Source: Polaribacter dokdonensis (GTDB taxonomy: Bacteria > Bacteroidota > Bacteroidia > Flavobacteriales > Flavobacteriaceae). Taken from it: a stretch of DNA of 64,000 nucleotides. The notes under the pieces are model-generated. The model searched no databases. It was not told the DNA's origin and saw only the letters and a list, made by a program, of their open reading frames with translations. Location of the stretch: assembly GCF_024362345.1 (NCBI RefSeq), contig NZ_CP101505.1, forward strand, positions 2,749,501 to 2,813,500, read 5' to 3'. Each line of letters starts with the position of its first letter. Within the stretch, counting starts at the first letter, position 1. The position numbers and the translations under genes are program-made. Below, piece by piece: positions 4,546-20,182 of the stretch.

Positions 4546-4992
4546 TTATGCTAACTCTTCTTCTACCATTAATGAGTTAATTGCAGACTGAATTTTAATT
4601 TTCTGTCTATCTAACAATTTCTCTGTACTTGGTGCGAATTCGTTGTCTTTTAATATTTCACAATATTCGTCATAATTTGCTTTTTCACCTCTAATGGCTT
4701 CTTCTAAAATGGCTTCTTCATCATTTGAGCTGAATAACGATTTTAAAGACATCCAGTTTCTGTGCATAGATCCTGTAAAGGTTCCACTATCTTCTGGAAT
4801 TTGTCCATAAGATAAAATTTCGGTTCTTAAGTTTTTGGCAAACTCACTTCTTTCTGAAGCTCTATTTTTAAAGAATATTTTTAATCTTGTACTATCTACA
4901 TTTTCTGCAGCGTTTAAATACCCTTTTTCTGCATCATAATTCTTCTCTAACAATTCGTTTAATTGATTCGAAACTTTTTCACTATACTTCAT
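4546..4992 (-). CDS. PA2169-like four-helix ferritin-like protein (DUF2383)
   Basis: A 148-aa soluble, all-helical protein of the PA2169/DUF2383 ferritin-like family, whose biochemical role is not established. It contains YDAEKGYLNAAENV, a Glu-rich helix (EEAILEEAIRGEKANYDEY) and HRNWMSLKSL. It is clearly a paralogue of the protein encoded at 19384-19833 (both have LLE..YDAEKG, a TGS/TGT.HR.WM block and EEA/S.RGEK). It is transcribed alone and has its own terminator. Its promoter shares the two-repeat geometry seen before the stress-island genes 10-15 kb away, so co-regulation with its paralogue is likely. Confidence 0.85.
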   Translation of the reverse strand: MKYSEKVSNQLNELLEKNYDAEKGYLNAAENVDSTRLKIFFKNRASERSEFAKNLRTEILSYGQIPEDSGTFTGSMHRNWMSLKSLFSSNDEEAILEEAIRGEKANYDEYCEILKDNEFAPSTEKLLDRQKIKIQSAINSLMVEEELA

Positions 4993-5056
4993 AATATCAT
5001 TTTCATTTTAAATTTCAACAATTTATTTTAAGATGCTTATTGTTTAACATCTGATA

Positions 5057-5114
5057 CAAAAGTAGTTAAGATATATAGTTTGCATTTGTTCAAATGATTT
5101 GATTGTTAACGCTA
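5057..5114 (-). promoter_or_regulatory. Two-repeat activator promoter (member E of the shared set)
   Basis: Read on the minus strand, a distal element TAGCGTTAAC starts at 5114. A proximal element TTGAACAAATGCAAAC starts at 5093, 21 bp on. A -7 box TACTTTTG starts at 5064, 29 bp after the proximal element. The stretch CATTTGAACAAA with CAAAC close behind is nearly the same as at 19252-19270, before the paralogous gene. It drives the gene that starts at 4992. Confidence 0.7.
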
Positions 5115-5197
5115 TCACTATTTTAGTGTTTTTTAATAATTGCTGATACTGAATATTTTATCTTCTTTTTTATTAGTTTTTATCAAAAAGAAAATCG

Positions 5198-5205
5198 TAA
5201 ATTTG
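5198..5205 (+). promoter_or_regulatory. -7 promoter element of rpsP-rimM
   Basis: TAAATTTG matches the Bacteroidetes -7 consensus TAnnTTTG and lies 69 bp before the rpsP start. It implies a leader of about 60 nt. No clear TTG at -33 is seen. Confidence 0.6.
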
Positions 5206-5211
5206 CGGTCG

Positions 5212-5230
5212 CTTATTACGAGATAATAAG
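5212..5230 (+). promoter_or_regulatory. Hairpin in the rpsP leader
   Basis: A perfect 7-bp stem (CTTATTA/TAATAAG) with a 5-nt loop lies just downstream of the predicted transcription start and 43 nt before the rpsP ATG. It is not followed by a T-run, so it is not a terminator. A role in message stability or S16 autoregulation is possible but not shown. Confidence 0.4.
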
Positions 5231-5273
5231 AGTTTTAATAACCAAGGTCGAGAACCTTAAAAAATTAATAAGT

Positions 5274-5837
5274 ATGCCAGTAAAGATTAGATTACAAAGA
5301 CATGGTAAAAAAGGAAAACCTTTTTATTGGATTGTTGCTGCAGATTCACGTGCAAAGAGAGATGGACGCTATTTAGAGAAAATAGGTACCTATAATCCAA
5401 ATGTAAACCCAGCTGAAATTAACTTAGATGTTGATGGTGCTGTAAAATGGTTACAGAATGGTGCTCAGCCAACTGACACTGCAAAAGCAATTTTATCTTA
5501 CAAAGGAGCTATGCTAAAAAATCATTTAGCAGGTGGAGTAAGAAAAGGAGCTTTAACTGAAGAGCAAGCAGAAGAGAAATTTAAAGCTTGGTTAGAAGAA
5601 AAAGAAGGAAAAGTTTCTACTAAAGAAGAAAAATTAGCAAAAGCAGAAGCTGATGCTAAAGCAAAAGCTTTAGAAGCTGAAAAAGCAGTTAACGAAGCAA
5701 GAATTGCTGCTAATACTCCAGAAGTAGAAGAAGCAGGTGATGCTACTGAAGAAGTTGAAGCTTTAGAAGTTGCTGCTGAAGAAGGAGTTGCTGCTGCAGA
5801 TTCTGAGGTTGCAGAAGAAGAAAAATCAGCTGAGTAA
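5274..5837 (+). CDS. rpsP: 30S ribosomal protein S16 with long acidic/basic tail
   Basis: The first 80 or so residues are a standard S16 (MPVKIRLQRHGKKGKPFYWI, then DSRAKRDGRYLEKIGTYNP), which binds 16S rRNA early in 30S assembly. The protein is 187 aa, about twice the length of E. coli S16. The extra part is rich in Ala, Glu and Lys and becomes strongly acidic at the end, so it is probably helical or disordered. Long S16 tails are common in Bacteroidetes. rimM follows 14 bp later, the usual pairing of S16 with the 30S maturation factor. Confidence 0.97.
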   Translation: MPVKIRLQRHGKKGKPFYWIVAADSRAKRDGRYLEKIGTYNPNVNPAEINLDVDGAVKWLQNGAQPTDTAKAILSYKGAMLKNHLAGGVRKGALTEEQAEEKFKAWLEEKEGKVSTKEEKLAKAEADAKAKALEAEKAVNEARIAANTPEVEEAGDATEEVEALEVAAEEGVAAADSEVAEEEKSAE

Positions 5838-5851
5838 AACTTTTATACGAT

Positions 5852-6382
5852 ATGCGTAAAGAAGAATGTTTTTACTTAGGCAGAATCGTAACAAAATATA
5901 GTTTTAAGGGTGAGGTTGTTATCAAATTAGATACAGACGAACCTGAGTTGTACAAAAATATGGAATCAGTTTACGTCGAATTTGGCAGTAATCTGGTTCC
6001 ATTTTTTATTGAAAAAAGTTCGCTGCATAAAGGAAATCAATTACGTGTTCAGTTTGAAGATGTCTACTCAGAAGAAGAAGCAGATTCCATTTTAAAATGC
6101 GGTATTTATTTACCTTTAGATTTATTACCTAAATTATCTGGAGATAAATTTTATTTCCATGAAGTAATTGGTTTTAATGTTCTAGATGCCAATTATGGTG
6201 ATGTTGGTAAAATTGTACATATTAATGATAAAGCTGCACAGCCATTATTTGAAATAGATAATAATGGTAAAGAGGTATTTATACCAATGATAGATGATTT
6301 TATCAAAAAAGTAGATAGAGCAAACAAAACAATAGAAGTCGAAACTCCAGAAGGCTTAATAGAATTGTATTTAAATAGCTAA
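5852..6382 (+). CDS. rimM: 16S rRNA processing/maturation protein RimM
   Basis: A 176-aa protein of normal length for RimM. The N-terminal beta-barrel (YLGRIVTKYSFKGEVVIKLD) and the C-terminal PRC-barrel (FYFHEVIGFNVLD, then PLFEIDNNGKEVFIPMIDDF) are both present. RimM binds S19 and helps mature the 30S head. It sits 14 bp after rpsP, in the same operon. No trmD or rplS follows; the next gene is a convergent lipoprotein, so the classical rpsP-rimM-trmD-rplS operon is broken here. Confidence 0.96.
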   Translation: MRKEECFYLGRIVTKYSFKGEVVIKLDTDEPELYKNMESVYVEFGSNLVPFFIEKSSLHKGNQLRVQFEDVYSEEEADSILKCGIYLPLDLLPKLSGDKFYFHEVIGFNVLDANYGDVGKIVHINDKAAQPLFEIDNNGKEVFIPMIDDFIKKVDRANKTIEVETPEGLIELYLNS

Positions 6383-6396
6383 TAAGTTATTTACTC

Positions 6397-6825
6397 TTAA
6401 GGAATATCAAAACTAAAGTTTACTCTAGCAAATTCATTTGCGTTTCCATTACTAGCTCTTTCTAGTAATAGTTCACCTTCAACAAATACTTGCACCTTTA
6501 GCTCTGATGTACTAAAGTTATTTCTAAAGGCTTCACCATCTAAAAAGTCATATTTGTAATTATCAAAAATTAACTTTAATGGTAAAGGATTACCATCTGT
6601 ATCGTACTTAAATACGTATGCTTCTGCAACATCTGTAGCTAAATCAATATCATAATACGTAATCATGGCCTCATCATAATTTGGCTCTGTAGTAGTAAAA
6701 ATAATTTCAATATCGTTTGTAGATGCTTCTTCTTGAGCTGCAATATCAGCAGCAGTAACTTCATCACAGGTACAACTACAAGAATACAAGATGGCTAACA
6801 TAAAAATGGCTACAATTTTCTTCAT
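6397..6825 (-). CDS. Small lipoprotein of unknown function
   Basis: A 142-aa protein with a typical lipoprotein signal: MKKIVAIFMLAILYSCSCTC, where the first Cys after LYS is the likely lipidated residue. After the signal comes an acidic region and then a beta-rich domain with alternating hydrophobic residues (LKVQVFVEGELLLERASNG). I do not recognise a family. The gene is isolated, converges on rimM with a 14-bp gap, and is divergent from trmN. It is probably a periplasmic or outer-membrane-anchored protein. Confidence 0.75.
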   Translation of the reverse strand: MKKIVAIFMLAILYSCSCTCDEVTAADIAAQEEASTNDIEIIFTTTEPNYDEAMITYYDIDLATDVAEAYVFKYDTDGNPLPLKLIFDNYKYDFLDGEAFRNNFSTSELKVQVFVEGELLLERASNGNANEFARVNFSFDIP

Positions 6826-6878
6826 AAATGTGATGTTTACTTTTCTAAAAATTTAATTTTTGATAGTACAATATTAGT

Positions 6879-6886
6879 TAATTTTG
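6879..6886 (+). promoter_or_regulatory. -7 promoter element of trmN
   Basis: TAATTTTG matches TAnnTTTG. Transcription would begin near 6893, about 13 nt before the ATT codon at 6906 and about 67 nt before the first ATG at 6960. A TTG lies 16 bp upstream, at 6860-6862. Confidence 0.55.
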
Positions 6887-6905
6887 CTGTAACTAAAAAC
6901 TTACG

Positions 6906-7628
6906 ATTATCAAACCTTTTAATTTTAAACAATTTACAGTTCATCAAGATAAAACAGCTATGAAAGTTGGTACAGATGGTGTTCTTTTGGGTGCTTGGTG
7001 TTCTGTTACTAATAATGTTGAATCTATACTTGATATTGGTTCAGGTACAGGAGTTATTAGTTTAATGATGGCTCAACGTTCTGAAGCTTTTACAATTGAT
7101 GCAGTAGAACTTGATGATGAAGCTTATGAGCAAACTGTAGAGAATTTTGAAGGTTCAGATTGGGGTGATCGCCTGTTTTGTTATCATTCTGATTTTACTG
7201 ATTTTGCTAATGAAATTGCAGAGGAAGAGGAAAGTTATGATTTGGTTATATCTAATCCTCCTTTTTATTCTGATGATTTTGAAACGGATAATGAGTCTAG
7301 AAACAAAGCAAGATTCACTTCTTCTTTACCATTTGAAGATTTATTAAAAGGTGTTGCAATGATATTGAGTGATGGTGGATGTTTTTCTACCATAATTCCT
7401 AAAAAAGAGGAAAACGCATTTATAGAATTAGCAAAAAAACAAGGTTTATATGTTAATCGAATTTGTCATGTAAAGGGCAATGAGACATCTGCTGTTAAGC
7501 GCAGTTTACTAGAATTCTCTTTTCACGAAAGTATCATCGATATTCAAGAGCTAATTATAGAAACTGAAAGACATAAATACACAGAAGCCTATGTATCTTT
7601 AACAAAAGAGTTTTATTTAAAAATGTAA
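6906..7628 (+). CDS. trmN: tRNA1(Val) A37 N6-methyltransferase, probable ATT start
   Basis: A class I SAM-dependent N6-adenine methyltransferase (YfiC/TrmN family). It has the SAM loop DIGSGTGVISL, the acidic VELDD and the catalytic NPPF motif (ISNPPFYSDDF). The first ATG is at 6960 (MKVGTDGVLLGAW), but homologues start 15-18 residues earlier with a conserved KPFxFKQFxVxQDxxAM block. That block is present here in frame (KPFNFKQFTVHQDKTAM). Between the in-frame stop at 6894-6896 and 6960 there is no ATG, GTG or TTG, so the start is probably ATT at 6906, giving 240 aa. Using 6960 would drop conserved residues. A local sequence error is the other explanation. Confidence 0.85.
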   Translation: MIKPFNFKQFTVHQDKTAMKVGTDGVLLGAWCSVTNNVESILDIGSGTGVISLMMAQRSEAFTIDAVELDDEAYEQTVENFEGSDWGDRLFCYHSDFTDFANEIAEEEESYDLVISNPPFYSDDFETDNESRNKARFTSSLPFEDLLKGVAMILSDGGCFSTIIPKKEENAFIELAKKQGLYVNRICHVKGNETSAVKRSLLEFSFHESIIDIQELIIETERHKYTEAYVSLTKEFYLKM

Positions 7629-8996
7629 TTAACCCCTAACATGATTAGGATTATAGCCTAAATAAGGAACTTCTCTTTCTTTAAAAATTATGCCATAATT
7701 CTCGAGCTCTTTTAAAATTGGTTCATAAACTTCTTTAAGAATTGGCAATTGAACACCAGGAGTTTTTATTTCTCCTTTTAATATTTTTAAAGCAGCAATA
7801 GCAACAGGTAAACCCACAGTTTTAGCCATTGCTGTATAGGTTTGATTTTCTCCTTTAACAACCAAACTGCTCTCTATCTGTTTTTTATTATTATTTAATT
7901 CGTAGCCAAATAAATGCTGCATAACAATCATGTCTTTGTCATCACTTTTTAGGGTCCAAGAATCTTCTAATATTTTTTGAAGGATTTGAGCAGGAGTTGC
8001 ATTTTTGAGTTTCACTTTTTTCTTTGGATTAAATAAATCCAATTCAACTAATTTTTCCCACATAATATCATCTTGATCAATCTTTAAGTAAGAGCGCAAT
8101 TTTAGTTCTACAGAATCAGAAGGCGAATAAGCTAAGAACAAGTTTACAAAATCACGATAACTCATGTTTTCAGAATCTTCTATGGTGTAAGAATCATCTG
8201 TCATGCCTAATTGAACAAAAATGTTCCATGCTCTAGAAAAACCAATCTTTCTAATAGTACCTCTATACATGGTTGGTATATTGTCTAAACCATACACACT
8301 TCTATATTTTAACGAATCTCTATTGGCATATGCTTCATATCTATTATTTTCTATTTTTAAGAATTCAGTTCTTCTAAATAATTTATGATAAGGAATGTAT
8401 TTATAAGTACTTTCTTGAATAAACATAGCAGCTCCTCCTTGACCCGCTAAAACTACATTTCTAGGATTCCAAGTAAATTTATAGTTCCATAGGTTGGTAT
8501 CACTTTCAGGAGCAACCAATCCTCCACAAAAAGATTCGAATAATAACATTTTACCTTTATTATTTCTAATAGAATCGATTACTTTCATGGCACTCATATG
8601 ATCTAAACCAGGATCTAGACCTATCTCATTCATAAAAACAAGATTGTTTTCTTTGGCTTGTTCATTCAATGCTTGCATCTCTTTAGAAATGTAAGATGCA
8701 GTTACCATATGTTTTTTAAGTGTAATACAATCTTTTGCTACTTCTATATGAAATCTTGCAGGCAACATAGAAATTACTAAATCACAATTTTTAATTTCAA
8801 GCTGTCTTTGGTTATCGTTAAATACATCAAACTGAATAACATTGGTTTTTTTATGGTTGTTAACCAATTGCTTGGCATTGTTAATGTCTAAATCTCCAAT
8901 CGTTAAAAACAGATTTTCTATATCTGCTTTGTCTAATAAGTATTTAATAAGAGATGAGCTTGATTTTCCAGCACCAATAATCAGAATGTTTTTCAT
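7629..8996 (-). CDS. Saccharopine dehydrogenase family protein (LYS9-like)
   Basis: A 455-aa protein with an N-terminal Rossmann fold (IGAGKSSSSLIKYLL, then TIGDLDINNAKQLV) and the family's C-terminal domain (EIGLDPGLDHMSA, FCGGLVAPESDTNLWNYKFTW). Homologues reduce or oxidise saccharopine in lysine metabolism or related imino acids. The N-terminal part binds NAD(P), the rest closes over the substrate. No lysine-degradation neighbour is present, so the substrate is not established. Its stop abuts the trmN stop directly. It is divergent from the DUF423 gene. Confidence 0.85.
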   Translation of the reverse strand: MKNILIIGAGKSSSSLIKYLLDKADIENLFLTIGDLDINNAKQLVNNHKKTNVIQFDVFNDNQRQLEIKNCDLVISMLPARFHIEVAKDCITLKKHMVTASYISKEMQALNEQAKENNLVFMNEIGLDPGLDHMSAMKVIDSIRNNKGKMLLFESFCGGLVAPESDTNLWNYKFTWNPRNVVLAGQGGAAMFIQESTYKYIPYHKLFRRTEFLKIENNRYEAYANRDSLKYRSVYGLDNIPTMYRGTIRKIGFSRAWNIFVQLGMTDDSYTIEDSENMSYRDFVNLFLAYSPSDSVELKLRSYLKIDQDDIMWEKLVELDLFNPKKKVKLKNATPAQILQKILEDSWTLKSDDKDMIVMQHLFGYELNNNKKQIESSLVVKGENQTYTAMAKTVGLPVAIAALKILKGEIKTPGVQLPILKEVYEPILKELENYGIIFKEREVPYLGYNPNHVRG

Positions 8997-9068
8997 GAAA
9001 TAAAACGTATTTTTGATAGATAAACGAAGATACTATAATTGTTTAAAATTTAACAGAAACACAAAAAA

Positions 9069-9449
9069 ATGTTTAAAAATTTAATTATTACTTGTTTTTT
9101 GGGATTGTCAGCTGTTATTCTAGGTGCTTTTGGAGCACACGCTTTAAAGGAAACTTTAAGTCCAGAAAATTTACAGAGTTTTGAAACTGCAGTTCGTTAT
9201 CAAATGTATCATGTAATAGTGCTCCTTATTATAAACCTCTATGATGGATTTACAGAAAAGCAAAAAAACACTATAAGTTATCTTTTATTCTCAGGTATTA
9301 TATTGTTCTCAGGATCTATCTATTGCATTCAGTTAACCTCTATAACTGCAAAATCTATTTGGTTTACAACACCTTTAGGAGGTTTGTTTTTTATAATTGC
9401 TTGGCTTTCAATGATTGTAATATTCGTAAAAAAAATAAGAAAGAATTAA
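9069..9449 (+). CDS. DUF423 (YgdD/YwdK) family membrane protein
   Basis: A 126-aa protein with four predicted membrane segments. It begins with the diagnostic pattern of the family, a first helix followed by GAFGAHALKETL, with later segments around HVIVLLIINLY, FSGIILFSGSIY and PLGGLFFIIAWLSM. The family is widespread, inner-membrane and of unknown function. The gene is monocistronic and followed by pckA 84 bp later with its own promoter. Confidence 0.88.
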   Translation: MFKNLIITCFLGLSAVILGAFGAHALKETLSPENLQSFETAVRYQMYHVIVLLIINLYDGFTEKQKNTISYLLFSGIILFSGSIYCIQLTSITAKSIWFTTPLGGLFFIIAWLSMIVIFVKKIRKN

Positions 9450-9497
9450 ATAATTCGTAAATCTTTTCTGATAATCACGTTGTTTTAAAATATTCAT

Positions 9498-9505
9498 TAG
9501 TTTTG
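9498..9505 (+). promoter_or_regulatory. -7 promoter element of pckA
   Basis: TAGTTTTG fits TAnnTTTG and lies 28 bp before the pckA ATG. A TTG is found at 9480-9482, a spacing slightly short of the usual one. Confidence 0.55.
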
Positions 9506-9533
9506 TTACTTATAAAAATCAAAAAATATTGAT

Positions 9534-11144
9534 ATGGTAGATACAAATACGAAATCGATTTCGTTAAATAGTCTAGGAATCAAAAATGCAACAATTCGTT
9601 ATCAATTAACTTCTAACGAATTACATCAAGTAACTTTAGAGAAAGAACAAGGAGTAGAATCATCTTTAGGCGCAATTGCTGTAAATACAGGTGAATTTAC
9701 AGGTCGTTCACCTATGGATCGTTTTATTGTAAAAGATGAAATTACCAAAGACGAAGTTTGGTGGAGTAACATTAATTTACCTTTTGATGAAAATAAATTC
9801 GATAGTCTTTATAATAAGGTTGTAGATTATTTATCTGAAAAAGAAATCTTTGTAAGAGATAGTTATGCTTGTGCAGACGAAAATTACAAATTAAATATTA
9901 GAGTGGTTAATGAATATCCTTGGAGCAACATGTTTGCTTACAATATGTTCTTAAGGCCAACTGAAGATGAGTTACAAAATTTCACTCCTGAATGGACAGT
10001 AATTAATGCACCAGGTTTTATGGCAGATGCTGCTGTAGATGGAACTCGTCAGCACAATTTTGCAATTTTAAATTTTTCTAAGAAAATTGCTTTAATTGGT
10101 GGTACTGGTTATACAGGTGAAATTAAAAAAGGTATTTTTTCTGCTCTTAACTTTATATTACCAGTTTATAAAAATACACTACCTATGCATTGTTCTGCAA
10201 ACGTAGGTAAGGAAGGAGATACAGCTATTTTCTTTGGTTTATCTGGTACAGGTAAAACTACGTTATCTACAGATCCAAATAGAAGTTTAATTGGAGATGA
10301 TGAACATGGTTGGACAGCAGAAAACACAGTTTTTAATTTTGAAGGAGGTTGTTATGCAAAAGTGATTAATTTATCACAAGAGCAAGAACCAGAAATCTTT
10401 TCTGCAATTAAAAAAGGCGCAATTTTAGAGAATGTAATTATGGATGATAATGGAGTAGTCGATTTTACAGACACTTCAATTACCCAAAATACAAGAGTTA
10501 GTTATCCTATTTATCATATAGATAATATTCAGAAACCATCAATAGGTAAAAACCCAAAAAACATCTTCTTTTTAACAGCAGATGCATTTGGCGTATTGCC
10601 TCCAATATCTAAATTAACACCTAGTCAAGCAGCTTATCACTTTATCTCTGGTTATACAGCAAAAGTGGCAGGTACAGAGGCAGGTGTAACAGAACCAGTA
10701 CCAAGTTTTTCAGCTTGTTTTGGAGCACCATTTATGCCTTTGCATCCTACTAGATATGCAGAAATGCTTAGTAAGAAAATGACAGATGCAGGTGTAAACG
10801 TTTGGTTAGTAAACACAGGTTGGTCTGGAGGTAAATATGGTGTAGGTAGAAGAATGCCATTAAAATATACTAGAGCAATGATTACTGCAGTTTTAAATGG
10901 AGATTTAAAAGATTATACTTACGAAGATTACCATATTCACTCAGTATTTGGAGTTGCACAACCAAGATCTTGTCCTGGAGTGCCAACAGAATTATTAAGT
11001 CCGCGAGCAACTTGGAATAATGATGATGCTTATTACGAAACTGCTTTTAAATTATCGAATGCATTTAGAAATAACTTTAAACAGTTTGAAGAATTTGCAA
11101 GCGAAGAAATTAGAAGAGGTGGTCCTCAAAGATATGCTTATTAG
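9534..11144 (+). CDS. pckA: Phosphoenolpyruvate carboxykinase (ATP)
   Basis: A 536-aa enzyme that converts oxaloacetate and ATP to phosphoenolpyruvate, CO2 and ADP, the first committed step of gluconeogenesis. It has GRSPMDRF (oxaloacetate site), the PEPCK-specific kinase loop GLSGTGKTTLS near residue 240, the metal-binding IGDDEHGW, and the C-terminal GWSGGKYGVGRRM. The length is normal for the ATP-dependent family. It is transcribed alone, with a -7 element 28 bp upstream and a strong terminator 27 bp downstream. It fits growth on amino acids, including the hydroxyproline route encoded later in the window. Confidence 0.97.
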   Translation: MVDTNTKSISLNSLGIKNATIRYQLTSNELHQVTLEKEQGVESSLGAIAVNTGEFTGRSPMDRFIVKDEITKDEVWWSNINLPFDENKFDSLYNKVVDYLSEKEIFVRDSYACADENYKLNIRVVNEYPWSNMFAYNMFLRPTEDELQNFTPEWTVINAPGFMADAAVDGTRQHNFAILNFSKKIALIGGTGYTGEIKKGIFSALNFILPVYKNTLPMHCSANVGKEGDTAIFFGLSGTGKTTLSTDPNRSLIGDDEHGWTAENTVFNFEGGCYAKVINLSQEQEPEIFSAIKKGAILENVIMDDNGVVDFTDTSITQNTRVSYPIYHIDNIQKPSIGKNPKNIFFLTADAFGVLPPISKLTPSQAAYHFISGYTAKVAGTEAGVTEPVPSFSACFGAPFMPLHPTRYAEMLSKKMTDAGVNVWLVNTGWSGGKYGVGRRMPLKYTRAMITAVLNGDLKDYTYEDYHIHSVFGVAQPRSCPGVPTELLSPRATWNNDDAYYETAFKLSNAFRNNFKQFEEFASEEIRRGGPQRYAY

Positions 11145-11170
11145 TTAGCATAGTTTTTAGTTTAAATCAG

Positions 11171-11199
11171 AAACACCTCATTTATATGAGGTGTTTTTT
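11171..11199 (+). terminator. Rho-independent terminator of pckA
   Basis: A 10-bp stem (AACACCTCAT/ATGAGGTGTT) with a 4-nt loop, followed by T6, lies 27 bp after the pckA stop. Confidence 0.85.
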
Positions 11200-11239
11200 G
11201 ATTTAAAAAAGTATCTTTAGTTCATAAAACTTGTTTTGA

Positions 11240-13922: not shown

Positions 13923-14766
13923 AATTTTAAAGACGGGTTTTTTAAGCTCTATTCAAGATAAAGGTAGATTTGGTTTTGCTTCTAAAGGTGTACCAATTTC
14001 AGGAGCTATGGATGCTTATTCTGCAGATTTAGCAAATGCTATATTGAATAATGCAGAAACAGATGCAGTTATAGAAGTAACTCTAGGCAATTGTACGTTT
14101 CAGTTCTTAGCAGATACTACAATTTGCATTACAGGTGGAGATTTTACGCCAAAATTAAATGGAACTACAATTCAATTAAATAAAATTATACCTATTTTTA
14201 AAACCGATATTTTAACTTTTCAAAAAGTAAATTATGGTGTACGATGTTATTTAGCTGTTAAAGGTGGTTTTTTAACTGACCAAATATTGGGAAGTAAAAG
14301 TTATTACTCTATTATTACAAATAGCAATAGCATTCATAAAGGTGATTTATTACCTTACCATGAATTAAGAGAGATAAGTTCAAAGATTCAATCATCAATA
14401 AAAATTAATAAAAATCATTATAAAGAAACTGAAATAGCATGTTATAAAGGTCCTGAGTTTCATTCGTTAGACGATGAACAAAAGAAGTTTCTACTAGAAA
14501 CAACCTTTACAATATCTAAAGATAATTCTAGAATGGGGTATAAGTTGAATGAACTTTTAGTAAATGAGTTGCCTCAATTATTAACATCGTCTGTTTTTCC
14601 TGGTACAGTTCAACTAACAAAATCGGGAACCTTAATTGTGTTAATGAGAGACTGCCAAACAACAGGTGGTTATCCTAGAATATTGCAATTAACAGAACAA
14701 GCAATTAATCAGTTAGCACAGAAAACGAGCTCAGATTCCTTTAAATTTAAGGTAAAACTCATTTGA
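13915..14766 (+). CDS. pxpC: 5-oxoprolinase subunit C (KipA, biotin-dependent carboxyltransferase family)
   Basis: A 283-aa protein whose family is also annotated as urea amidolyase-like or biotin-dependent carboxyltransferase. It has the start signature SIQDKGRFGFASKGVPISG, the central GGFLTDQILGSKSYY and the late DCQTTGGYPRI. It overlaps pxpB by 8 bp and is the last gene of the operon. It is slightly shorter than the usual 300-330 aa. No clear terminator follows. The next promoter, for the YtxH operon, begins at its stop codon. Confidence 0.93.
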   Translation: MLKILKTGFLSSIQDKGRFGFASKGVPISGAMDAYSADLANAILNNAETDAVIEVTLGNCTFQFLADTTICITGGDFTPKLNGTTIQLNKIIPIFKTDILTFQKVNYGVRCYLAVKGGFLTDQILGSKSYYSIITNSNSIHKGDLLPYHELREISSKIQSSIKINKNHYKETEIACYKGPEFHSLDDEQKKFLLETTFTISKDNSRMGYKLNELLVNELPQLLTSSVFPGTVQLTKSGTLIVLMRDCQTTGGYPRILQLTEQAINQLAQKTSSDSFKFKVKLI

Positions 14767-14820
14767 GTTAAGATTTCGTTTTTATGAGTTAAAGGCAAAA
14801 TCGGTTCTCGTATATCTTTG
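14763..14820 (+). promoter_or_regulatory. Two-repeat activator promoter of the YtxH operon (member A)
   Basis: A distal repeat TTGAGTTAAG begins at 14763. A proximal repeat ATGAGTTAAAGG begins at 14784, 21 bp on. The -7 box TATCTTTG begins at 14813, 29 bp after the proximal repeat. The -7 context TATATCTTTGCAGTGT is the same as at 19282-19297 except for one base. The proximal repeat overlaps the expected -33 region, the usual place for a class II AraC-type activator. Confidence 0.75.
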
Positions 14821-14875
14821 CAGTGTGCTTGAGCAAATGCAAAAAAATAAGTTTAACAATTAAAAATCATAAACC

Positions 14876-15232
14876 ATGAGTAATTTATCAAATTTTATAT
14901 TAGGTGCTGCAGTAGGTAGCGTTTTAGGTATTCTATATGCTCCAGATAAAGGAGAAGAAACTAGAAAAAAATTATTAGCAGAGGCTTTAGTAGCTAAAGA
15001 TAAGCTAGCAGAATCTGCAGAAGAAATTAAAGATAAAGTTGGTTCTACAGTAACGAATCAAAAACAAAATTTAGAATCTCAATTAGAAAATGTAATGTCT
15101 AATGTAAGTTACAAAGCAGAAGATGTTATTACTACTTTAGAGAGAAAATTGAGTGAATTAAAAGAGAAAAACAAGCATCTTCAAAAAAACACAGTTGAAG
15201 ATTTAGAAGATAAATTTAACCAAACTGTATAA
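14876..15232 (+). CDS. YtxH domain-containing protein
   Basis: A 118-aa protein with one N-terminal membrane segment rich in Gly/Ala (FILGAAVGSVLGILYAPDKG). This is the hallmark of YtxH proteins, followed by ETRKKL and a long charged helical tail suited to a coiled coil. YtxH is a general-stress gene in Bacillus; the molecular role is unknown. It is first in a four-gene operon with a holin-like protein, a DUF6327-like protein and a lipoprotein. The two-repeat promoter lies upstream. Confidence 0.88.
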   Translation: MSNLSNFILGAAVGSVLGILYAPDKGEETRKKLLAEALVAKDKLAESAEEIKDKVGSTVTNQKQNLESQLENVMSNVSYKAEDVITTLERKLSELKEKNKHLQKNTVEDLEDKFNQTV

Positions 15233-15237
15233 TATAA

Positions 15238-15633
15238 ATGTTAGGTCAAGAAACTAAAAGTAGCACTTCAGATAGTACTATAGATATAGCAAAGAGATAT
15301 TCAGAAACTTCTTACAAGTATATTAAACTTAAGATTTTTCACTTGCTTACTTCTAATATAGCTTTATTAGCTAAGGTGTTTGTAATTGGTGTCTTGTTTT
15401 TAATATCAATATTATTTTTATCAATTTCAGGAGCTTTAGCAATTGGTGAAGAATTAAAAAGTATGCCATTAGGATTTTTAAGTATTTTCTTAATTTACTT
15501 AATATTAACCTTAATTGCTTATTTATTAAGAAAGAAAATTAATAAATCTGTTATTACCTCTTTTGCAGATAAGTTTTTCAGTCAAGAAGAACCAATCAAG
15601 CCAAATGAAATTGCAAAAAAACAATCAAACTAA
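15238..15633 (+). CDS. Phage holin family (Phage_holin_3_6-like) membrane protein
   Basis: A 131-aa protein with two strong hydrophobic segments (AKVFVIGVLFLISILFLSIS and MPLGFLSIFLIYLILTLIAY) followed by a Lys-rich cytoplasmic tail. This pattern matches the so-called phage-holin family 3_6, which despite its name is mostly chromosomal and associated with stress genes. It starts 5 bp after the YtxH gene. No lysis gene or other phage gene is nearby, so a prophage origin is unlikely. Confidence 0.8.
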   Translation: MLGQETKSSTSDSTIDIAKRYSETSYKYIKLKIFHLLTSNIALLAKVFVIGVLFLISILFLSISGALAIGEELKSMPLGFLSIFLIYLILTLIAYLLRKKINKSVITSFADKFFSQEEPIKPNEIAKKQSN

Positions 15634-15640
15634 ACTACTA

Positions 15641-15841
15641 ATGAAACCATATCAAAATTTCGAGCAGATAGAATATGATCTAAAGGTTTTAAACCTAGAA
15701 AGAAAAATTGCCTTCGAGGAATTAAAAAGTGTAAAACAAGATTTTGAAGAAACACTTAAGCCTATGAATATTTTAGGAGGAGCTTTAAAGTTCTTAGGTA
15801 AATATGGAGCTTTATTATTAGTAAAAAAGTTCTTCAAATAG
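15641..15841 (+). CDS. Small DUF6327-like protein
   Basis: A 66-aa protein starting with MKPYQNFEQIEYDLKVLNLE, then a charged helix and a hydrophobic C-terminal segment (ILGGALKFLGKYGALLLVKK). The beginning resembles the DUF6327 family of Bacteroidetes, which is often found beside YtxH and holin-like genes; this is from memory and not tested. An in-frame ATG at 15563 would overlap the holin-like gene by more than 70 bp. The ATG at 15641, 7 bp after that gene's stop, is therefore preferred. Confidence 0.65.
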   Translation: MKPYQNFEQIEYDLKVLNLERKIAFEELKSVKQDFEETLKPMNILGGALKFLGKYGALLLVKKFFK

Positions 15842-15866
15842 AATTAATTAAACTAAAAAAAATATT

Positions 15867-16451
15867 ATGAAAAAAGTAATTATGACAATTATGACAGCTG
15901 CTGTATTAGTAAGTTGTGATGTAGACCAAACTAAAGAAACTAAATTACCAGAAGTAGATGTAGAAATCGAAACTGAAGCAGGACAATTACCAGCTTTTGA
16001 TGTAGATTGGGCAGAAGTAAATGTTGGTACAACAACAAAAACTGTAACTGTACCTAAAGTGGTTGTAGTAATGGAAGAAGTAGAGGTAGAAGTACCTTAT
16101 GTAGATGTAGATATGCCAGATGATATAAATGGTGAAAAAGAGGAGCAAACTTTAATGGTAGAAGCAGAGGTTTCTGATAAAGAACATGCTATTAAAATTA
16201 AAGAAATAAGAGCAATGAATAATAACTTAATTGTAATTTCTGAATTAACAGAAATGACATCAAGTTTAGGAGATAAAAAAATTAGAATATCTGATCAAGT
16301 AACTTTAAATGCACCAGATATGAACGTTAAATATTACGTTGTTGGTGAAAGACCAGATAGAGTATTTAATACAAAATATAAGTACTATTCAGATATGAAT
16401 ACCTTAAATGAAAAATTAGGAAAAGATTATAAAGTTATTTATAAGAAGTAA
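15867..16451 (+). CDS. Lipoprotein of unknown function, last gene of the YtxH operon
   Basis: A 194-aa protein with a short lipoprotein signal (MKKVIMTIMTAAVLVSCDVD). After the lipidated Cys comes an unusual acidic stretch made of alternating Val/Glu/Asp units (VDVEIETEAG, EVEVEVPYVDVDMPDD) and then a mixed alpha/beta domain of about 90 residues. I recognise no family. It follows the previous gene by 25 bp and is closed by a strong terminator, so it probably belongs to the same stress operon and acts in the periplasm. Confidence 0.72.
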   Translation: MKKVIMTIMTAAVLVSCDVDQTKETKLPEVDVEIETEAGQLPAFDVDWAEVNVGTTTKTVTVPKVVVVMEEVEVEVPYVDVDMPDDINGEKEEQTLMVEAEVSDKEHAIKIKEIRAMNNNLIVISELTEMTSSLGDKKIRISDQVTLNAPDMNVKYYVVGERPDRVFNTKYKYYSDMNTLNEKLGKDYKVIYKK

Positions 16452-16474
16452 TTTTATAATGGTTGGTTGATTTT

Positions 16475-16510
16475 AAAGCCTTGATATTCTTAGAATATCA
16501 AGGCTTTTTT
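16475..16510. terminator. Bidirectional terminator between the YtxH operon and the AraC gene
   Basis: A long stem of about 14 bp (AAAGCCTTGATATTC/GAATATCAAGGCTTT) with a tiny loop is flanked by T-runs on both strands. It ends the plus-strand operon and the minus-strand regulator gene, which stops at 16512. The 12-mer GGTTGGTTGATT stands just upstream at 16461. Confidence 0.85.
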
Positions 16511-16511
16511 A

Positions 16512-17537
16512 TTACGCTACTTTTTTTAAATTTTTTTTAAAACTATTTGGAGTTATGTTATATTTCTCTTTAAAAATTTTAGAAAAATAACTTCTACTAC
16601 TAAACCCAATACTGTAAACAATTTGAGAGATATTTAGGTCTGAGTTTTTAAGCATTTCTCTAGCGCTTTCTAATCGTATATGTCTTATATACTCTGTAAC
16701 TGTTCTCTTATAAAAGTATTTAAACCCTTCTTGTAATTTAGCTTGTGTTAAACCAGATTTAAATGATAATTGGTTTAATGAATATTCCTTTGCAGGATTT
16801 TTTAAAATATCATTTCCAATTTTTCTTATTATTTTTAAATCGCTCTTATTAATACCTTCAGGTAATTTAGTTCCAGATAAAATTCTGTTATGTTGCTGAA
16901 TGTGCATAGATAAAATCTCATAAATTCTAGCTTCAATTTTCAGAATTCTTAACATTCCTTTTGCTTTAATCTTATGCATACCATTTATAAGATCTGCCAT
17001 TTTAAGATTTAAAGTTCCATAACTAGAAAATCTATTTTCATGATCAGTATCAACAAAAACTTCATAAAGTTTAGAATTTAATGTAGAAACATTTGTAGTT
17101 CTCTTCTTTAAGAAATGTTTTCTAACAATTTGAATGATGTTAACCTCCAGTTTTTCATCCTTTGGAAAAATAATATCATTATAACCTCCATCTTTATTGG
17201 TGAAAATTAAAGACTGAAATTGCCCAACTTCTTTTATGGTATTATGAATTCCGAATTTATGTTTTAGACTTCCCAAAGAAGGGTATATAAAACGAATAGG
17301 ATTAAAATCTTCTTGAGACTCTACATGTAAAAAAAGTTCTTTATGAAATTTAATACTAAAATCTAATAAATTTACACCCCAATCAAAAGGGATATATCTA
17401 ATTGTGCCAATTGCATTTTCGTTGTTAATAGTAAGTACAAACTCGCTCCATTGTTCAGTGACTTCACCACCAATTTCTTTTTGTAATTGATCTAAAAAGT
17501 CTTTAGGACTATCAGCATTAATTTCAATATTTATCAT
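16512..17537 (-). CDS. AraC family transcriptional regulator, candidate controller of the stress island
   Basis: A 341-aa regulator. The last 100 residues are a canonical AraC double helix-turn-helix, with YSLNQLSFKSGLTQAKLQ as the first helix pair and the second around LNISQIVYSIGFSSRSYFSK, followed by ITPNSFKK. The N-terminal 230 residues resemble the ligand/signal domain of PchR-type regulators in Bacteroidetes but no ligand is evident. It is divergent from the hemerythrin gene, and the 161-bp spacer holds one of the two-repeat promoters. Its position inside the set of genes carrying these promoters makes it the best candidate activator. This is inference. Confidence 0.88.
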   Translation of the reverse strand: MINIEINADSPKDFLDQLQKEIGGEVTEQWSEFVLTINNENAIGTIRYIPFDWGVNLLDFSIKFHKELFLHVESQEDFNPIRFIYPSLGSLKHKFGIHNTIKEVGQFQSLIFTNKDGGYNDIIFPKDEKLEVNIIQIVRKHFLKKRTTNVSTLNSKLYEVFVDTDHENRFSSYGTLNLKMADLINGMHKIKAKGMLRILKIEARIYEILSMHIQQHNRILSGTKLPEGINKSDLKIIRKIGNDILKNPAKEYSLNQLSFKSGLTQAKLQEGFKYFYKRTVTEYIRHIRLESAREMLKNSDLNISQIVYSIGFSSRSYFSKIFKEKYNITPNSFKKNLKKVA

Positions 17538-17619
17538 AATATAATTGTATTATTTAGCTAATAATTAACGAAAAACGAATATCGGTAAAGGTAGCTTAAA
17601 AATATATACGCAAGCCTGA

Positions 17620-17677
17620 TTAGATTAATCTTAAGTTGAAATGAGTTAATAATACCTTCCGTTTAAAATTATTTTTG
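17620..17677 (+). promoter_or_regulatory. Two-repeat activator promoter of hemerythrin-topIB (member D)
   Basis: A weak distal element TTAGATTAAT starts at 17620. The proximal element ATGAGTTAAT starts at 17641, 21 bp on. The -7 box TATTTTTG starts at 17670, 29 bp further. The in-frame TTG at 17675 is part of this -7 box, so it cannot serve as a start codon for the downstream gene. Confidence 0.68.
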
Positions 17678-17698
17678 ATTAAATCAATAAAAAATTCT

Positions 17699-18133
17699 AT
17701 GAACATTTTTGAGCAAATAAGAAAAGATCATGATACTCAAAGAGATCTTTTAGACAAGTTAGTAAAGACATCTGGTGATACAGAAAAAAGAAATGAAATT
17801 TACACATGTTTAAAGAAGGAGTTAGAGATACATGCAGATGCAGAAGAAAGGCATTTTTACAAACCTTTAATTAGTAATGATATGATGCAAGAAAAAGCCA
17901 GACATGGTATTGCAGAACATCATGAAATAGATGAATTGATAGAGCAATTAGATGAAACAGATTACGATTCTTCTGCTTGGTTAAAAATTGCCAAACAACT
18001 AAAAGAAAAGGTAGAGCATCATTTAGAAGATGAAGAGCATAAGTTTTTTCAATTGGCAGGTAAGGTTTTTACAGAAAAAGAGAAAACTTCTTTAGCTAAA
18101 GAATATACCAATTATATGGAGCAAAATCTATAA
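17699..18133 (+). CDS. Hemerythrin-like (HHE) cation-binding protein
   Basis: A 144-aa four-helix protein. The His and Glu residues expected to hold a di-iron centre are present: RKDHD in helix 1, EIHADAEERHFY in helix 2, IAEHHEIDELI in helix 3 and EHHLEDEEHKFF in helix 4. Such proteins bind O2 or NO or store iron, and are often stress-induced. The ATG at 17699 is chosen because the more upstream TTG lies inside the promoter. The topoisomerase gene starts 4 bp after its stop, in one operon. Confidence 0.88.
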   Translation: MNIFEQIRKDHDTQRDLLDKLVKTSGDTEKRNEIYTCLKKELEIHADAEERHFYKPLISNDMMQEKARHGIAEHHEIDELIEQLDETDYDSSAWLKIAKQLKEKVEHHLEDEEHKFFQLAGKVFTEKEKTSLAKEYTNYMEQNL

Positions 18134-18137
18134 TATT

Positions 18138-19223
18138 ATGATGAAGGTAATAGATAAATCGATTGTAAAAAGCATATTAACCAAGCCAGAAGATTCTTTG
18201 AGTTATTTTGATTTGGTTTATGTAAATGATTTCAATTTATCTATTAGCCGAATTAAAAAAGGAGAAACATTTAGTTATCAAAAAGGCAAAACGTTTGTTT
18301 CCGATAAAAACATATTAAATAGAATAGAAACGTTGGTGATACCTCCAATGTGGAAAAAAGTGCGCATTTCTGATTTAGATAATGGTCATTTACAAGCTGT
18401 AGGCAGAGATGCTAAAGGTAGAAAACAATACAGATATCACCCAAAATGGAATGCTGTTAGAAATAAAACCAAGTTTGTTAAGATGATAGATTTTGGAAAG
18501 AATCTACCGAAAATAAGAGCAAGAGTTACAAGTGATTTAAATCAGAAAAATTGGACGAAAACCAAAGTCCTAGCATTAATTGTTAAGTTATTAGAAGAAA
18601 CTCATATTAGAATTGGTAACACCCAATATGCAAAGCGTAATAAAACCTATGGCATTACTACATTAAGAACAAGGCACATTAATAAAGAAAATAATAAAAT
18701 TAGATTCGAGTTTGTTGGCAAAAGAGGCAAAGAACATAAGATTACTTTAAGAAATAAAAAATTGATAAAACTGGTGAATCAGTGTCAAGAAATTCCTGGT
18801 TGGAAATTGTTTCAATATTATGATGAAGATGGTGTGAAGAAAGAAATTGACAGCAGTTCAGTTAATGACTACATACATGCTATTAGTGGTGAATTATTTA
18901 CAGCTAAAGATTTTAGAACCTGGTCAGCTTCACTAATTAGTTTTAATACGTTGATGGATTTTGGTATTGAGCATGATGATAATCAAAATAAAAAAAACAG
19001 ATTATCTGCCATAGATATTACAGCTAAGGAGTTAGGGAATACCAGAAATGTATCTCGCAAATATTACATCCATCCTCATATATTAAAAACATATGAAGAT
19101 TCTACAATTGATAAATATTTTCAGAAGGCTGAAAACGATGAGAATACTTATGCTCATTTTTCACATTCAGAAAATGCACTTATGGCTTTGTTAGAAGATT
19201 ATAGTCCTGTTATAAATATGTAA
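18138..19223 (+). CDS. DNA topoisomerase IB (poxvirus/bacterial type)
   Basis: A 361-aa single-chain topoisomerase that relaxes supercoils through a 3'-phosphotyrosine intermediate. It has the N-terminal DNA clamp (RIETLVIPPMWKKVRIS, GRDAKGRKQYRYHPKW) and the catalytic domain (RIGNTQYAKRNKTYGITTL, KDFRTWSAS). The probable active-site Tyr lies in NVSRKYYIHP. Bacterial TopIB is non-essential and patchily distributed, and in alphaproteobacteria it often belongs to the general stress regulon. The operon with a hemerythrin and the two-repeat promoter suggests the same here. ATG at 18138 or 18141 would both work. Confidence 0.93.
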   Translation: MMKVIDKSIVKSILTKPEDSLSYFDLVYVNDFNLSISRIKKGETFSYQKGKTFVSDKNILNRIETLVIPPMWKKVRISDLDNGHLQAVGRDAKGRKQYRYHPKWNAVRNKTKFVKMIDFGKNLPKIRARVTSDLNQKNWTKTKVLALIVKLLEETHIRIGNTQYAKRNKTYGITTLRTRHINKENNKIRFEFVGKRGKEHKITLRNKKLIKLVNQCQEIPGWKLFQYYDEDGVKKEIDSSSVNDYIHAISGELFTAKDFRTWSASLISFNTLMDFGIEHDDNQNKKNRLSAIDITAKELGNTRNVSRKYYIHPHILKTYEDSTIDKYFQKAENDENTYAHFSHSENALMALLEDYSPVINM

Positions 19224-19233
19224 CTAAAATCAT

Positions 19234-19291
19234 ATGAGTCAAGGTCAATTTCATTTGAACAAAGACAAACCTTCTAAAGCCTATATCTTTG
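19234..19291 (+). promoter_or_regulatory. Two-repeat activator promoter of the second DUF2383 gene (member B)
   Basis: A distal element ATGAGTCAAGG starts at 19234. A proximal element TTGAACAAAGACAAAC starts at 19255, 21 bp on. The -7 box TATCTTTG starts at 19284, 29 bp on. The -7 context TATATCTTTGTAGTGT differs by one base from member A. Confidence 0.75.
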
Positions 19292-19383
19292 TAGTGTAAG
19301 AAAAAGAAAGCAAAAAATTGCTAGATGTTAAATGTTTCACATCTATAAAATAAATGAAGCAATCACGTAAAAATTTAAATGAG

Positions 19384-19833
19384 ATGAGTACTTATACAGA
19401 AGAAGTTGGAAAAAAATTAAACGGATTATTAGAAAGAACATATGATGCTGAAAAAGGTTTTAAAAACGCAGCAGAAAATATTAGTAACCCAGCATTAAAG
19501 AATTATTTTAATTCAAAGGCCAAAGAAAGATATAATTTTGGGCATGAGTTAAAAGACGAAATTAAATCATTTAATCAAGAAATTGATAAAGGTGGTAGTT
19601 TAACAGGAACTGCACACAGAGCATGGATGGATATTAAAGCATTATTGTCTTTAGATAATGAAGAATCTATGTTAGAAGAATCTATTAGAGGAGAAAAAAC
19701 TGCTATTGCTGATTATGATGAAGTTTTAAATGAAACTACATTACCAAGTAGTACAAAAACAGTGTTAGAAGCACAGAAAAATAAAATCCAAACAGGATTG
19801 GAAAATATTAAGTCTTTAGAGGATATACACTAG
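19384..19833 (+). CDS. PA2169-like four-helix ferritin-like protein (DUF2383), second copy
   Basis: A protein of about 149 aa and a paralogue of the gene at 4546-4992. Shared blocks are YDAEKGFKNAAENI, LTGTAHRAWMDIKALLS and the Glu-rich EESMLEESIRGEKTAIADYD. The start at 19384 (MSTYTEEVGKKLN) aligns with the paralogue's start. An in-frame ATG at 19354 would add ten residues and is the alternative. The family is a stress-associated helical bundle of unknown function. It has its own two-repeat promoter and terminator. Confidence 0.86.
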   Translation: MSTYTEEVGKKLNGLLERTYDAEKGFKNAAENISNPALKNYFNSKAKERYNFGHELKDEIKSFNQEIDKGGSLTGTAHRAWMDIKALLSLDNEESMLEESIRGEKTAIADYDEVLNETTLPSSTKTVLEAQKNKIQTGLENIKSLEDIH

Positions 19834-19858
19834 AGATTTAAGGTTGGTTGATTGATTT

Positions 19859-19885
19859 AGGTTGTCTGAAAAGACAACCTTTTTC
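19859..19885 (+). terminator. Terminator of the second DUF2383 gene
   Basis: A 9-bp stem (AGGTTGTCT/AGACAACCT) with a GAAA tetraloop is followed by T5. The 12-mer GGTTGGTTGATT precedes it at 19842, as it does before the terminator at 16475. Confidence 0.88.
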
Positions 19886-19905
19886 TATTTTAAAAACCTA
19901 CTTAA

Positions 19906-19963
19906 TTGAGTTAAGATTAACTTTGTAAGAGTTAATAACCTCTTTAGAAAAGAGTTAATTTTA
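19906..19963 (+). promoter_or_regulatory. Two-repeat activator promoter of the DUF1328 gene (member C)
   Basis: A distal repeat TTGAGTTAAGATT starts at 19906, the same 13-mer as in member A. A proximal repeat AAGAGTTAAT starts at 19927, 21 bp on. A -7-like TAATTTTA starts at 19956, 29 bp further; its last base differs from the consensus. A third GAGTTAA at 19952 overlaps the -7 box. Confidence 0.68.
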
Positions 19964-20020
19964 CTGTAAGAGAGATAGTTATAGCAACTATTTAAATATT
20001 AACTAAAAAAACTTTAAATT

Positions 20021-20182
20021 ATGTTACGTTGGGCAATCATTTTTATAATAATCGCATTAATTGCTGGAGTTTTAGGCTTTGGTGGAATAGCAGGTGCTGC
20101 AGCTGGAATAGCTAAAATAGTATTTGTTGTGTTTATTATTTTATTCTTAATATCATTAATTACTGGAAGAAAGAAAGTATAA
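20021..20182 (+). CDS. DUF1328 (YtjA-like) small membrane protein
   Basis: A 53-aa protein starting [20 protein letters not shown], then [20 protein letters not shown] and a short basic tail RKKV. This is the DUF1328/YtjA pattern: two hydrophobic segments joined by a Gly/Ala-rich turn. The family is small, inner-membrane and common in stress regulons, with no known biochemical role. It has its own two-repeat promoter and a strong terminator. Confidence 0.9.

Follow-up and report, generated by a model that had tools for sequence, protein, structure and literature searches.

We analysed a stretch of 64,000 nucleotides from Polaribacter dokdonensis (assembly GCF_024362345.1, contig NZ_CP101505.1, positions 2,749,501 to 2,813,500), hereafter the window, which carries a cluster of genes for two DUF2383 proteins, YtxH, a hemerythrin, topoisomerase IB, a DUF1328 protein and an AraC/XylS-family regulator that we call AraC-1 (Table 1). 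Five promoters of this cluster share the putative operator WTGAGYWAA-N12-WTGAGYWAA-N20-TAnnTTTG, in which two direct repeats precede a -7 box. A preliminary description of the window had reported that the repeat starts lie 21 bp apart and that repeat 2 starts 29 bp before TAnnTTTG at each promoter, and all five aligned in this way: counted from the start of repeat 1, the offsets are 21 for repeat 2 and 50 for the -7 box. The sole imperfect -7 box proved to be TAATTTTA upstream of the DUF1328 gene (member C of that description), which deviates in its last base, and the weak distal repeats noted at two members were found upstream of the hemerythrin gene (TTAGATTAA) and of the DUF2383 gene at 4992 (TAGCGTTAA). 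The site letters A to E used here differ in order from the earlier member letters.

Table 1. Operator sites and genes of the cluster, in window coordinates; scores were obtained with the independent matrix described in the text
Feature	Position	Strand	Elements or evidence	Score (bits)
Site A, upstream of a DUF2383 gene	5057..5114	-	repeat 1 5114-5106 TAGCGTTAA; repeat 2 5093-5085 TTGAACAAA; -7 box 5064-5057 TACTTTTG	29.2
Site B, upstream of the YtxH gene	14763..14820	+	repeats 14763, 14784; -7 box TATCTTTG at 14813	34.8
Site C, upstream of hemerythrin and topoisomerase IB genes	17620..17677	+	repeats 17620 (weak, TTAGATTAA), 17641; -7 box TATTTTTG at 17670	22.6
Site D, upstream of the second DUF2383 gene	19234..19291	+	repeats 19234, 19255; -7 box TATCTTTG at 19284	32.7
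Site E, upstream of the DUF1328 gene	19906..19963	+	repeats 19906, 19927; -7 box TAATTTTA at 19956	27.8
DUF2383 protein, putative target of site A	4546..4992	-	PF09537 2.5e-40
Putative site B operon: YtxH, 131-aa membrane-like protein, 92-aa protein	14876..15841	+	operon suggested by spacing
194-aa lipoprotein-like gene	15867..16451	+	own site not found in window
AraC-1, 341-aa AraC/XylS-family regulator	16512..17537	-	HTH_18 5e-18; predicted fold; co-occurrence with sites
Probable site C operon: hemerythrin (PA2171-like), topoisomerase IB	17699..19223	+	PF01814, PF01028
Second DUF2383 protein, putative target of site D	19354..19833	+	PF09537 1.2e-37
DUF1328/YtjA-type small membrane protein, putative target of site E	20021..20182	+	PF07043 1.5e-14

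The paired operator and the AraC-1 gene

For scoring we derived a matrix from 191 sites in loci outside Polaribacter; it is independent of the window although those sites had themselves first been found with a Polaribacter matrix. On both strands of the window the top five places were the five noted promoters (22.6-34.8 bits), and the sixth place reached 7.8 bits. With the repeats 1-4 bp closer together or farther apart, the highest-scoring place reached 12.6 bits, and sliding the -7 box gave a best place of 18.6 bits. Single TGAGTTAA 8-mers with at most one mismatch were not enriched in the window (112 seen vs 130 expected), and for this reason a test must use the paired geometry. The signal in the window is the paired, spaced arrangement and not the single repeats. 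Corresponding sites at G000:C1:2861761-2861816 and G064:C1:2720906-2720961 have their repeats 20 bp apart, at the same distance to TAGATTTG, and are possibly a spacing variant.

The AraC-1 gene, absent from the preliminary description, lies inside the cluster and is divergent from one of the five promoters. Its product has a C-terminal DNA-binding domain with two helix-turn-helix (HTH) segments and an N-terminal cupin-like effector/dimerization domain, and is a member of the AraC/XylS family. The predicted structure contains AraC-type dimer and DNA-binding folds; this model was built on 70 alignment rows and replaced a first model with 12 rows and a predicted local distance difference test (pLDDT) score of 67.7. 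The preliminary proposal of an AraC-type regulator thus gained support from an AraC/XylS-family gene in the cluster that co-varies with the sites, as described below, and AraC-1 is the likely reader of these sites. An AraC-1 paralog in L144 carries its own site. The AraC-1 homolog stretch of Psychroserpens burtonensis (L124:10001-11005) contains an in-frame stop, which may mark a pseudogene, an error in the sequence or an alignment that crosses a frameshift, and was excluded.

Sites, regulator and targets across genomes

We searched 58 genomes of the window's genus for matches to WTGAGYWAA-N12-WTGAGYWAA-N20-TANNTTTG with at most three mismatches, taking the reversed pattern as control. AraC-1 was called at E<=1e-90 (46-100% identity), and genomes with no relative at E<=1e-40 were classed as regulator-less. 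The genome of the window itself gave 14 matches against 0 for the reversed control. The 20 genomes with AraC-1 held 5-22 sites each (211 in total; reversed control 19), and three genomes with only a 34-38% identical relative (G027, G035 and G066) held 31 (9-11 each; reversed control 1). Taken together, the 23 genomes with AraC-1 or the paralog AraC-2 had 5-22 sites each, 242 in total vs 20 for the control, whereas the 35 genomes without a regulator had 43 sites vs 34 (mean 1.2 vs 0.97). Site counts differed strongly between regulator-bearing and regulator-less genomes (Mann-Whitney p 3e-10, uncorrected for kinship). The preliminary description had allowed that the pattern might occur as often before unrelated genes; genus-wide, an excess over the reversed control was seen only where AraC-1 or its paralog is present.

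More than three matches were found in two of the 35 regulator-less genomes, G024 (7) and G067 (6). Neither set was accepted as true sites, since those of G024 are copies of short tandem repeats and those of G067 match the -7 box poorly; both genomes were nevertheless retained as positives in the group and tree-pair statistics. AAGAGTA-type tandem repeats that mimic the pattern lie on contigs 3, 24, 26, 44, 47, 54 and 56 of G024, several of them near contig ends.

A DNA polymerase III tree requires at least 13 changes in the presence of the regulator. Among 10 independent pairs on supported branches, sites followed the regulator in about 9, went the opposite way in 0 and were equal in about 1 (p about 0.004), the tree being that of one protein (DNA polymerase III alpha) with 8 of 60 rows under 1400 residues. 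At tree distances of about 0.01-0.04, for example, G017 has AraC-1 and 9 sites, and G077, G022 and G026 have no regulator and 0-1 sites. An exact-match search of the 58 genomes with the two gaps left free (2-30 and 8-36) returned 71 matches vs 19 for the reversed control; 44 of the 71 fell at one gap pair, and the next class held 4.

The putative targets showed a similar distribution. DUF2383 proteins above the family cut-off were present in 23/23 regulator-bearing genomes vs 0/35 of the others (24 of these 35 are at least 90% complete), and the regulator-less G020 gave a sub-threshold match (20.5 bits, 41/111 positions). A site at the exact geometry lay within 300 bp upstream of 24 of 30 DUF2383 genes (30 of the 39 matches). 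Close Dps orthologs (81-83%) were found in 2 of the 30 regulator-less genomes searched (30 of 35), and neither has a site upstream. In G005 and G011 (L247, L248) the region upstream of dps contains no repeat pair, and the two share TTGAC...TATATTA and, with looser similarity, a GAGATTCCGGAATTCC-like sequence; these genomes may regulate dps in another way. The joint presence of the regulator and of targets at several chromosomal places supports a functional unit. Since the DUF2383 counts are all-or-none, this co-inheritance suggests that this type of stress protection is accessory and niche-linked among members of the genus.

We also analysed named loci, the best 80 of 464 confirmed AraC-1 relatives (49-83% identical, >20 genus names, 1.59 Mb), from genera including Polaribacter, Algibacter, Winogradskyella, Psychroserpens, Aquimarina, Cellulophaga, Maribacter and Muricauda. 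At the true geometry these contained 218 sites >16 bits, as against 0-2 at each of eight other repeat spacings. With the 20 bp between repeat 2 and TAnnTTTG changed by 1-4, each shift gave 3-24 matches above the same threshold. Sites were present in 78/80 loci and in 67/69 of those outside Polaribacter; only 4 of the 218 lay inside open reading frames (ORFs) >80 aa, and the -7 box lay a median of 56 bp from the ORF start. In nine target groups the majority-base frequency was 0.78-0.92 in the repeats vs 0.48-0.69 in the spacers, a contrast that is partly due to the matrix-based selection of sites. A first draw yielded 11 AraC-1 stretches, each with sites (best 29.2-37.4 bits). Of 296 genomes drawn across the order, 27 had a relative at E<=1e-40 and 8, including the genome of the window, at E<=1e-100, and 6 of 7 AraC-1-like 4-kb loci outside that genome had a site >16 bits (L202-L206, L208). 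From the named-genome and order-wide distributions, the site/regulator system is therefore family-level and patchy.

An ORF start lay within 250 bp of 198 of the 218 sites in the named loci. The first ORFs were YtxH (38 sites), the DUF1328 group (28), DUF2383 (27), Dps (24), aldehyde dehydrogenase (12), lipoprotein (11), hemerythrin (9), GH3-like (9) and ArsC-like (6) genes, followed by smaller groups and 13 singletons including CsbD. In the genome of the window, 9 of the 14 matches lie outside the window. Seven of them combine a complete -7 box with an ORF that begins no more than 68 bp away; they precede genes for Dps-MscS, a secreted-type protein, two lipoprotein-type proteins, a glyoxalase-fold protein, Pmp3 and a 49-aa protein. 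The matches at G000:1071508 and 3007018 lack a good -7 box and were rejected as full sites, and the regulon of this genome would comprise about 12 promoters. The Dps-MscS promoter carries a site also in G015, G013 and G001. Stress-protective families are represented among the targets by Dps, MscS, Pmp3, CsbD, YtxH, DUF1328, DUF2383 and hemerythrin. The sites therefore precede stress-family genes both within and outside the cluster, in line with the stress regulon that had been proposed, and the initial observation is correct and larger in extent than noted.

The 131-aa membrane-like protein behind site B, described earlier as holin-like, has no Pfam match, and a PHROGs scan of this and three other proteins gave nothing useful. 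The 92-aa protein matches DUF6327 below the cut-off, as the hemerythrin behind site C does NF053874 (4.8e-14). Homologs of the 194-aa lipoprotein-like gene carry a site in 11/80 named loci. The second DUF2383 gene may start at the ATG at 19354, not at 19384 as previously given.

The paralog AraC-2

AraC-2 closely resembles AraC-1 where DNA would be contacted. HTH segment 1 (GLTQAKLQEGFK in AraC-1; GLTAAKLQEGFK or GLTAAKVQEGFK in AraC-2) and HTH segment 2 (IGFSSRSYFSKIFKEKY; LGFSSRSYFSKIFKEKY or LGFSSRSYFSKKFREMF) are nearly equal in the two proteins. In two other genera, loci whose best match is AraC-2-like and which have no close AraC-1 also carry sites: one of 24.4 bits precedes a DUF1328 gene in L226, and one of 28.2 bits a Pmp3-like gene in L225. 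The simplest reading of these sequences is that AraC-1 and AraC-2 share an operator. Two results speak against this: six of the eight AraC-2 stretches of the window's genus (L043, L045-L047, L049, L050) have no site >16 bits, L044 and L048 being the two that do, and 11 of 12 four-kb loci around g21 AraC-2-like genes have no site >6 bits, the twelfth (L226) having two of 30.2 and 24.4 bits. Four 20-kb g21 stretches (L232-L235) contain neither the stress cluster nor sites.

In 10 of 19 stretches (L044-L050, L237, L242, L245; 8/9 in the window's genus) AraC-2 occurs together with a histidine kinase, a single-domain response regulator and a 184-aa AraC protein. L236 and L241 have only the response regulator and the 184-aa AraC protein, and L043 (G035) is not in the linked set. 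In the genome of the window the AraC-2 locus is L045:9474-14649 (G000:C1, about 1.559 Mb), where a domain scan of the neighbouring kinase identified CHASE3, PAS, HisKA and HATPase domains. This linkage suggests an input path for AraC-2. The 184-aa AraC gene of L242 has a site 382 bp upstream (24.7 bits). DUF3095 accompanies the AraC-2 neighbourhood in L045, L047, L049, L050 and L245, and a BLUF blue-light gene lies near it in L044 and L237. In L239 and L240 (G151, G135; other genera) four AraC-1/AraC-2-like genes are clustered with DUF2383, hemerythrin and topoisomerase IB genes, which suggests repeated duplication.

A putative class II circuit and its alternatives

We propose, with a probability of roughly 0.8, that AraC-1 and AraC-2 act as class II activators of a general stress regulon transcribed with the housekeeping sigma factor. 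The analysis shows the geometry, linkage and conservation of the sites, the co-inheritance, and the family and predicted fold of the protein, from which we infer the binding, the activation, the stress signal and the part played by AraC-2. The five promoters would be targets of AraC-1, which is encoded among them, and AraC-2 probably reads the same sites in some species. A dimer of AraC-1 would occupy the two direct half-sites, which are two helical turns apart at 21 bp and would start near -62 and -41 relative to the predicted transcription start. These positions take TAnnTTTG to lie at -12 to -5, as the housekeeping box does in a Flavobacterium psychrophilum study (PMC9723704). The proximal half-site would replace the -33 element, and the bound protein would contact RNA polymerase carrying the housekeeping sigma factor. 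In the genome of the window the regulon would include Dps-MscS, Pmp3, the two DUF2383 proteins, YtxH, hemerythrin-topoisomerase IB, DUF1328 and lipoproteins, and would be driven by an AraC activator instead of an alternative sigma factor. Because the promoters carry the housekeeping -7 box this is not a SigB/RpoS system, and the regulon may nonetheless work like a general stress regulon.

Several results weigh against this proposal. The distance to the -7 box tolerates more variation than the spacing of the repeats. No site >16 bits is present in L161 (Robiginitalea) and L177 (Flagellimonas), two of the 80 named loci (best 15.8 and 13.4), or in L207, one of the seven order-wide AraC-1-like loci; 6 of the 30 DUF2383 genes lack a site within 300 bp. 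The AraC-1 gene itself lacks a site in the window, and it does not recur as a target across the 80 loci. The targets are mostly missing along with the regulator, as the DUF2383 and close Dps counts indicate, and co-occurrence therefore speaks more for a module inherited as a unit than for the loss of sites from genes that were kept; since the regulator and its multi-locus targets are gained and lost jointly, the site counts mostly reflect gene content. Finally, G035 and G066 keep the cluster and the sites and have AraC-2 but no AraC-1 at the usual place, so that AraC-1 alone cannot account for every genome and AraC-2 substitution or another binder is needed, G066 being 88% complete with an AraC-1 copy elsewhere possible.

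This last point bears on the alternative that AraC-2 or another AraC paralog is the principal reader, with AraC-1 a modulator or second input on the same operators. The near-identical recognition helices, the sites beside AraC-2-like genes in L226 and L225, the evident signal path through the linked kinase and response regulator, and the 9-11 sites of G027, G035 and G066, which have only AraC-2-like proteins at E<=1e-40, all argue for it. We nevertheless regard it as rather unlikely, because 12 of the 20 AraC-1 genomes lack AraC-2 at this threshold and still have 5-16 sites, sites >16 bits are found in 11/11 AraC-1 vs 2/8 AraC-2 stretches, and nearly all g21 loci are without sites. A repressor covering the -33 region and relieved under stress would also explain a proximal repeat that spans the predicted -41 to -33 and could block polymerase. 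However, the site profile has no separate TTG -33 element 17-23 bp from the -7 box, the spacing range taken for these two elements, and the promoters therefore seem weak unless activated; the placement of the repeats and their direct orientation fit AraC-type class II activation, and we consider repression improbable. It is less probable still that the repeats are the -33-type element of an alternative sigma factor, even though general stress regulons elsewhere are under sigma control: the repeats, 21 bp apart, reach to about -62, past the sigma contacts, the gene that co-varies with the sites encodes a transcription factor, and the -7 box is the housekeeping TAnnTTTG (PMC9723704). Chance or the base composition of an AT-rich genome, with which the unenriched single 8-mers would agree, is ruled out by the spacing controls, the reversed-pattern controls and the conservation across genera.

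Class II activation by AraC-1 and AraC-2 could be part of a broader scheme, to which we give slightly less than even odds. Here the AraC activator pair with its one operator would run the general stress response of marine Flavobacteriaceae, AraC-2 would end a pathway of CHASE3-PAS kinase, single-domain response regulator and short AraC protein, and the regulator with its scattered targets would form an accessory module, gained or lost whole among close species, that substitutes for RpoS, SigB and EcfG.

Alternative sigma factors usually govern general stress responses, and the classical ones are absent from the sigma list of F. psychrophilum, which comprises sigma-A, one sigma-54 and seven extracytoplasmic function (ECF) factors (PMC9723704). 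The preliminary statement that flavobacteria lack RpoS, SigB and EcfG fits this list. F. psychrophilum likewise belongs to the Flavobacteriaceae and has a genome-wide transcription start map, for which the reported motifs SM1-SM6 are sigma motifs, unlike the sites described here; the main text of that study mentions none of the terms AraC, YtxH, Dps and hemerythrin (PMC9723704). No description of an AraC-type stress regulon in Flavobacteriaceae was found in searches of the open-licence literature, which is a weak negative. If class II activation by the AraC proteins holds true, this would be a general stress switch in bacteria not known to possess the usual switches of this kind, and a named regulator, a precise operator and a target list make stress coordination in marine flavobacteria testable in a cultured strain.

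AraC (araI1-I2) and XylS (Pm) are class II activators with direct half-sites 21 bp apart. AraC-1 is like them in its two-HTH C-terminal domain and cupin-like dimer domain, and the sites here are like theirs in that the proximal site is near the -10/-7 box, over the -35/-33 region. AggR sites are located 21-22 bp upstream of the -10 box, overlapping the -35 element (PMC6392122). Unlike AraC, XylS and AggR, the system described here has a Bacteroidota -7 box and putative stress targets, not sugar, aromatic or adhesin genes. In its targets it overlaps with the sigma-controlled general stress regulons. The csbD, dps and ytxH families are shared with the Bacillus subtilis SigB regulon, where they belong to the core set (PMC7824861); unlike that regulon, which uses an alternative sigma factor, the promoters here combine a housekeeping-type -7 box with upstream activator-like repeats. 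The yjbJ/CsbD, ytjA/DUF1328 and yqaE/Pmp3 families are shared with the enterobacterial RpoS regulon, and these are among the RpoS-controlled small genes of Salmonella (PMC5437024). In contrast to the sigma control of the RpoS regulon, control here is putatively of the AraC type.

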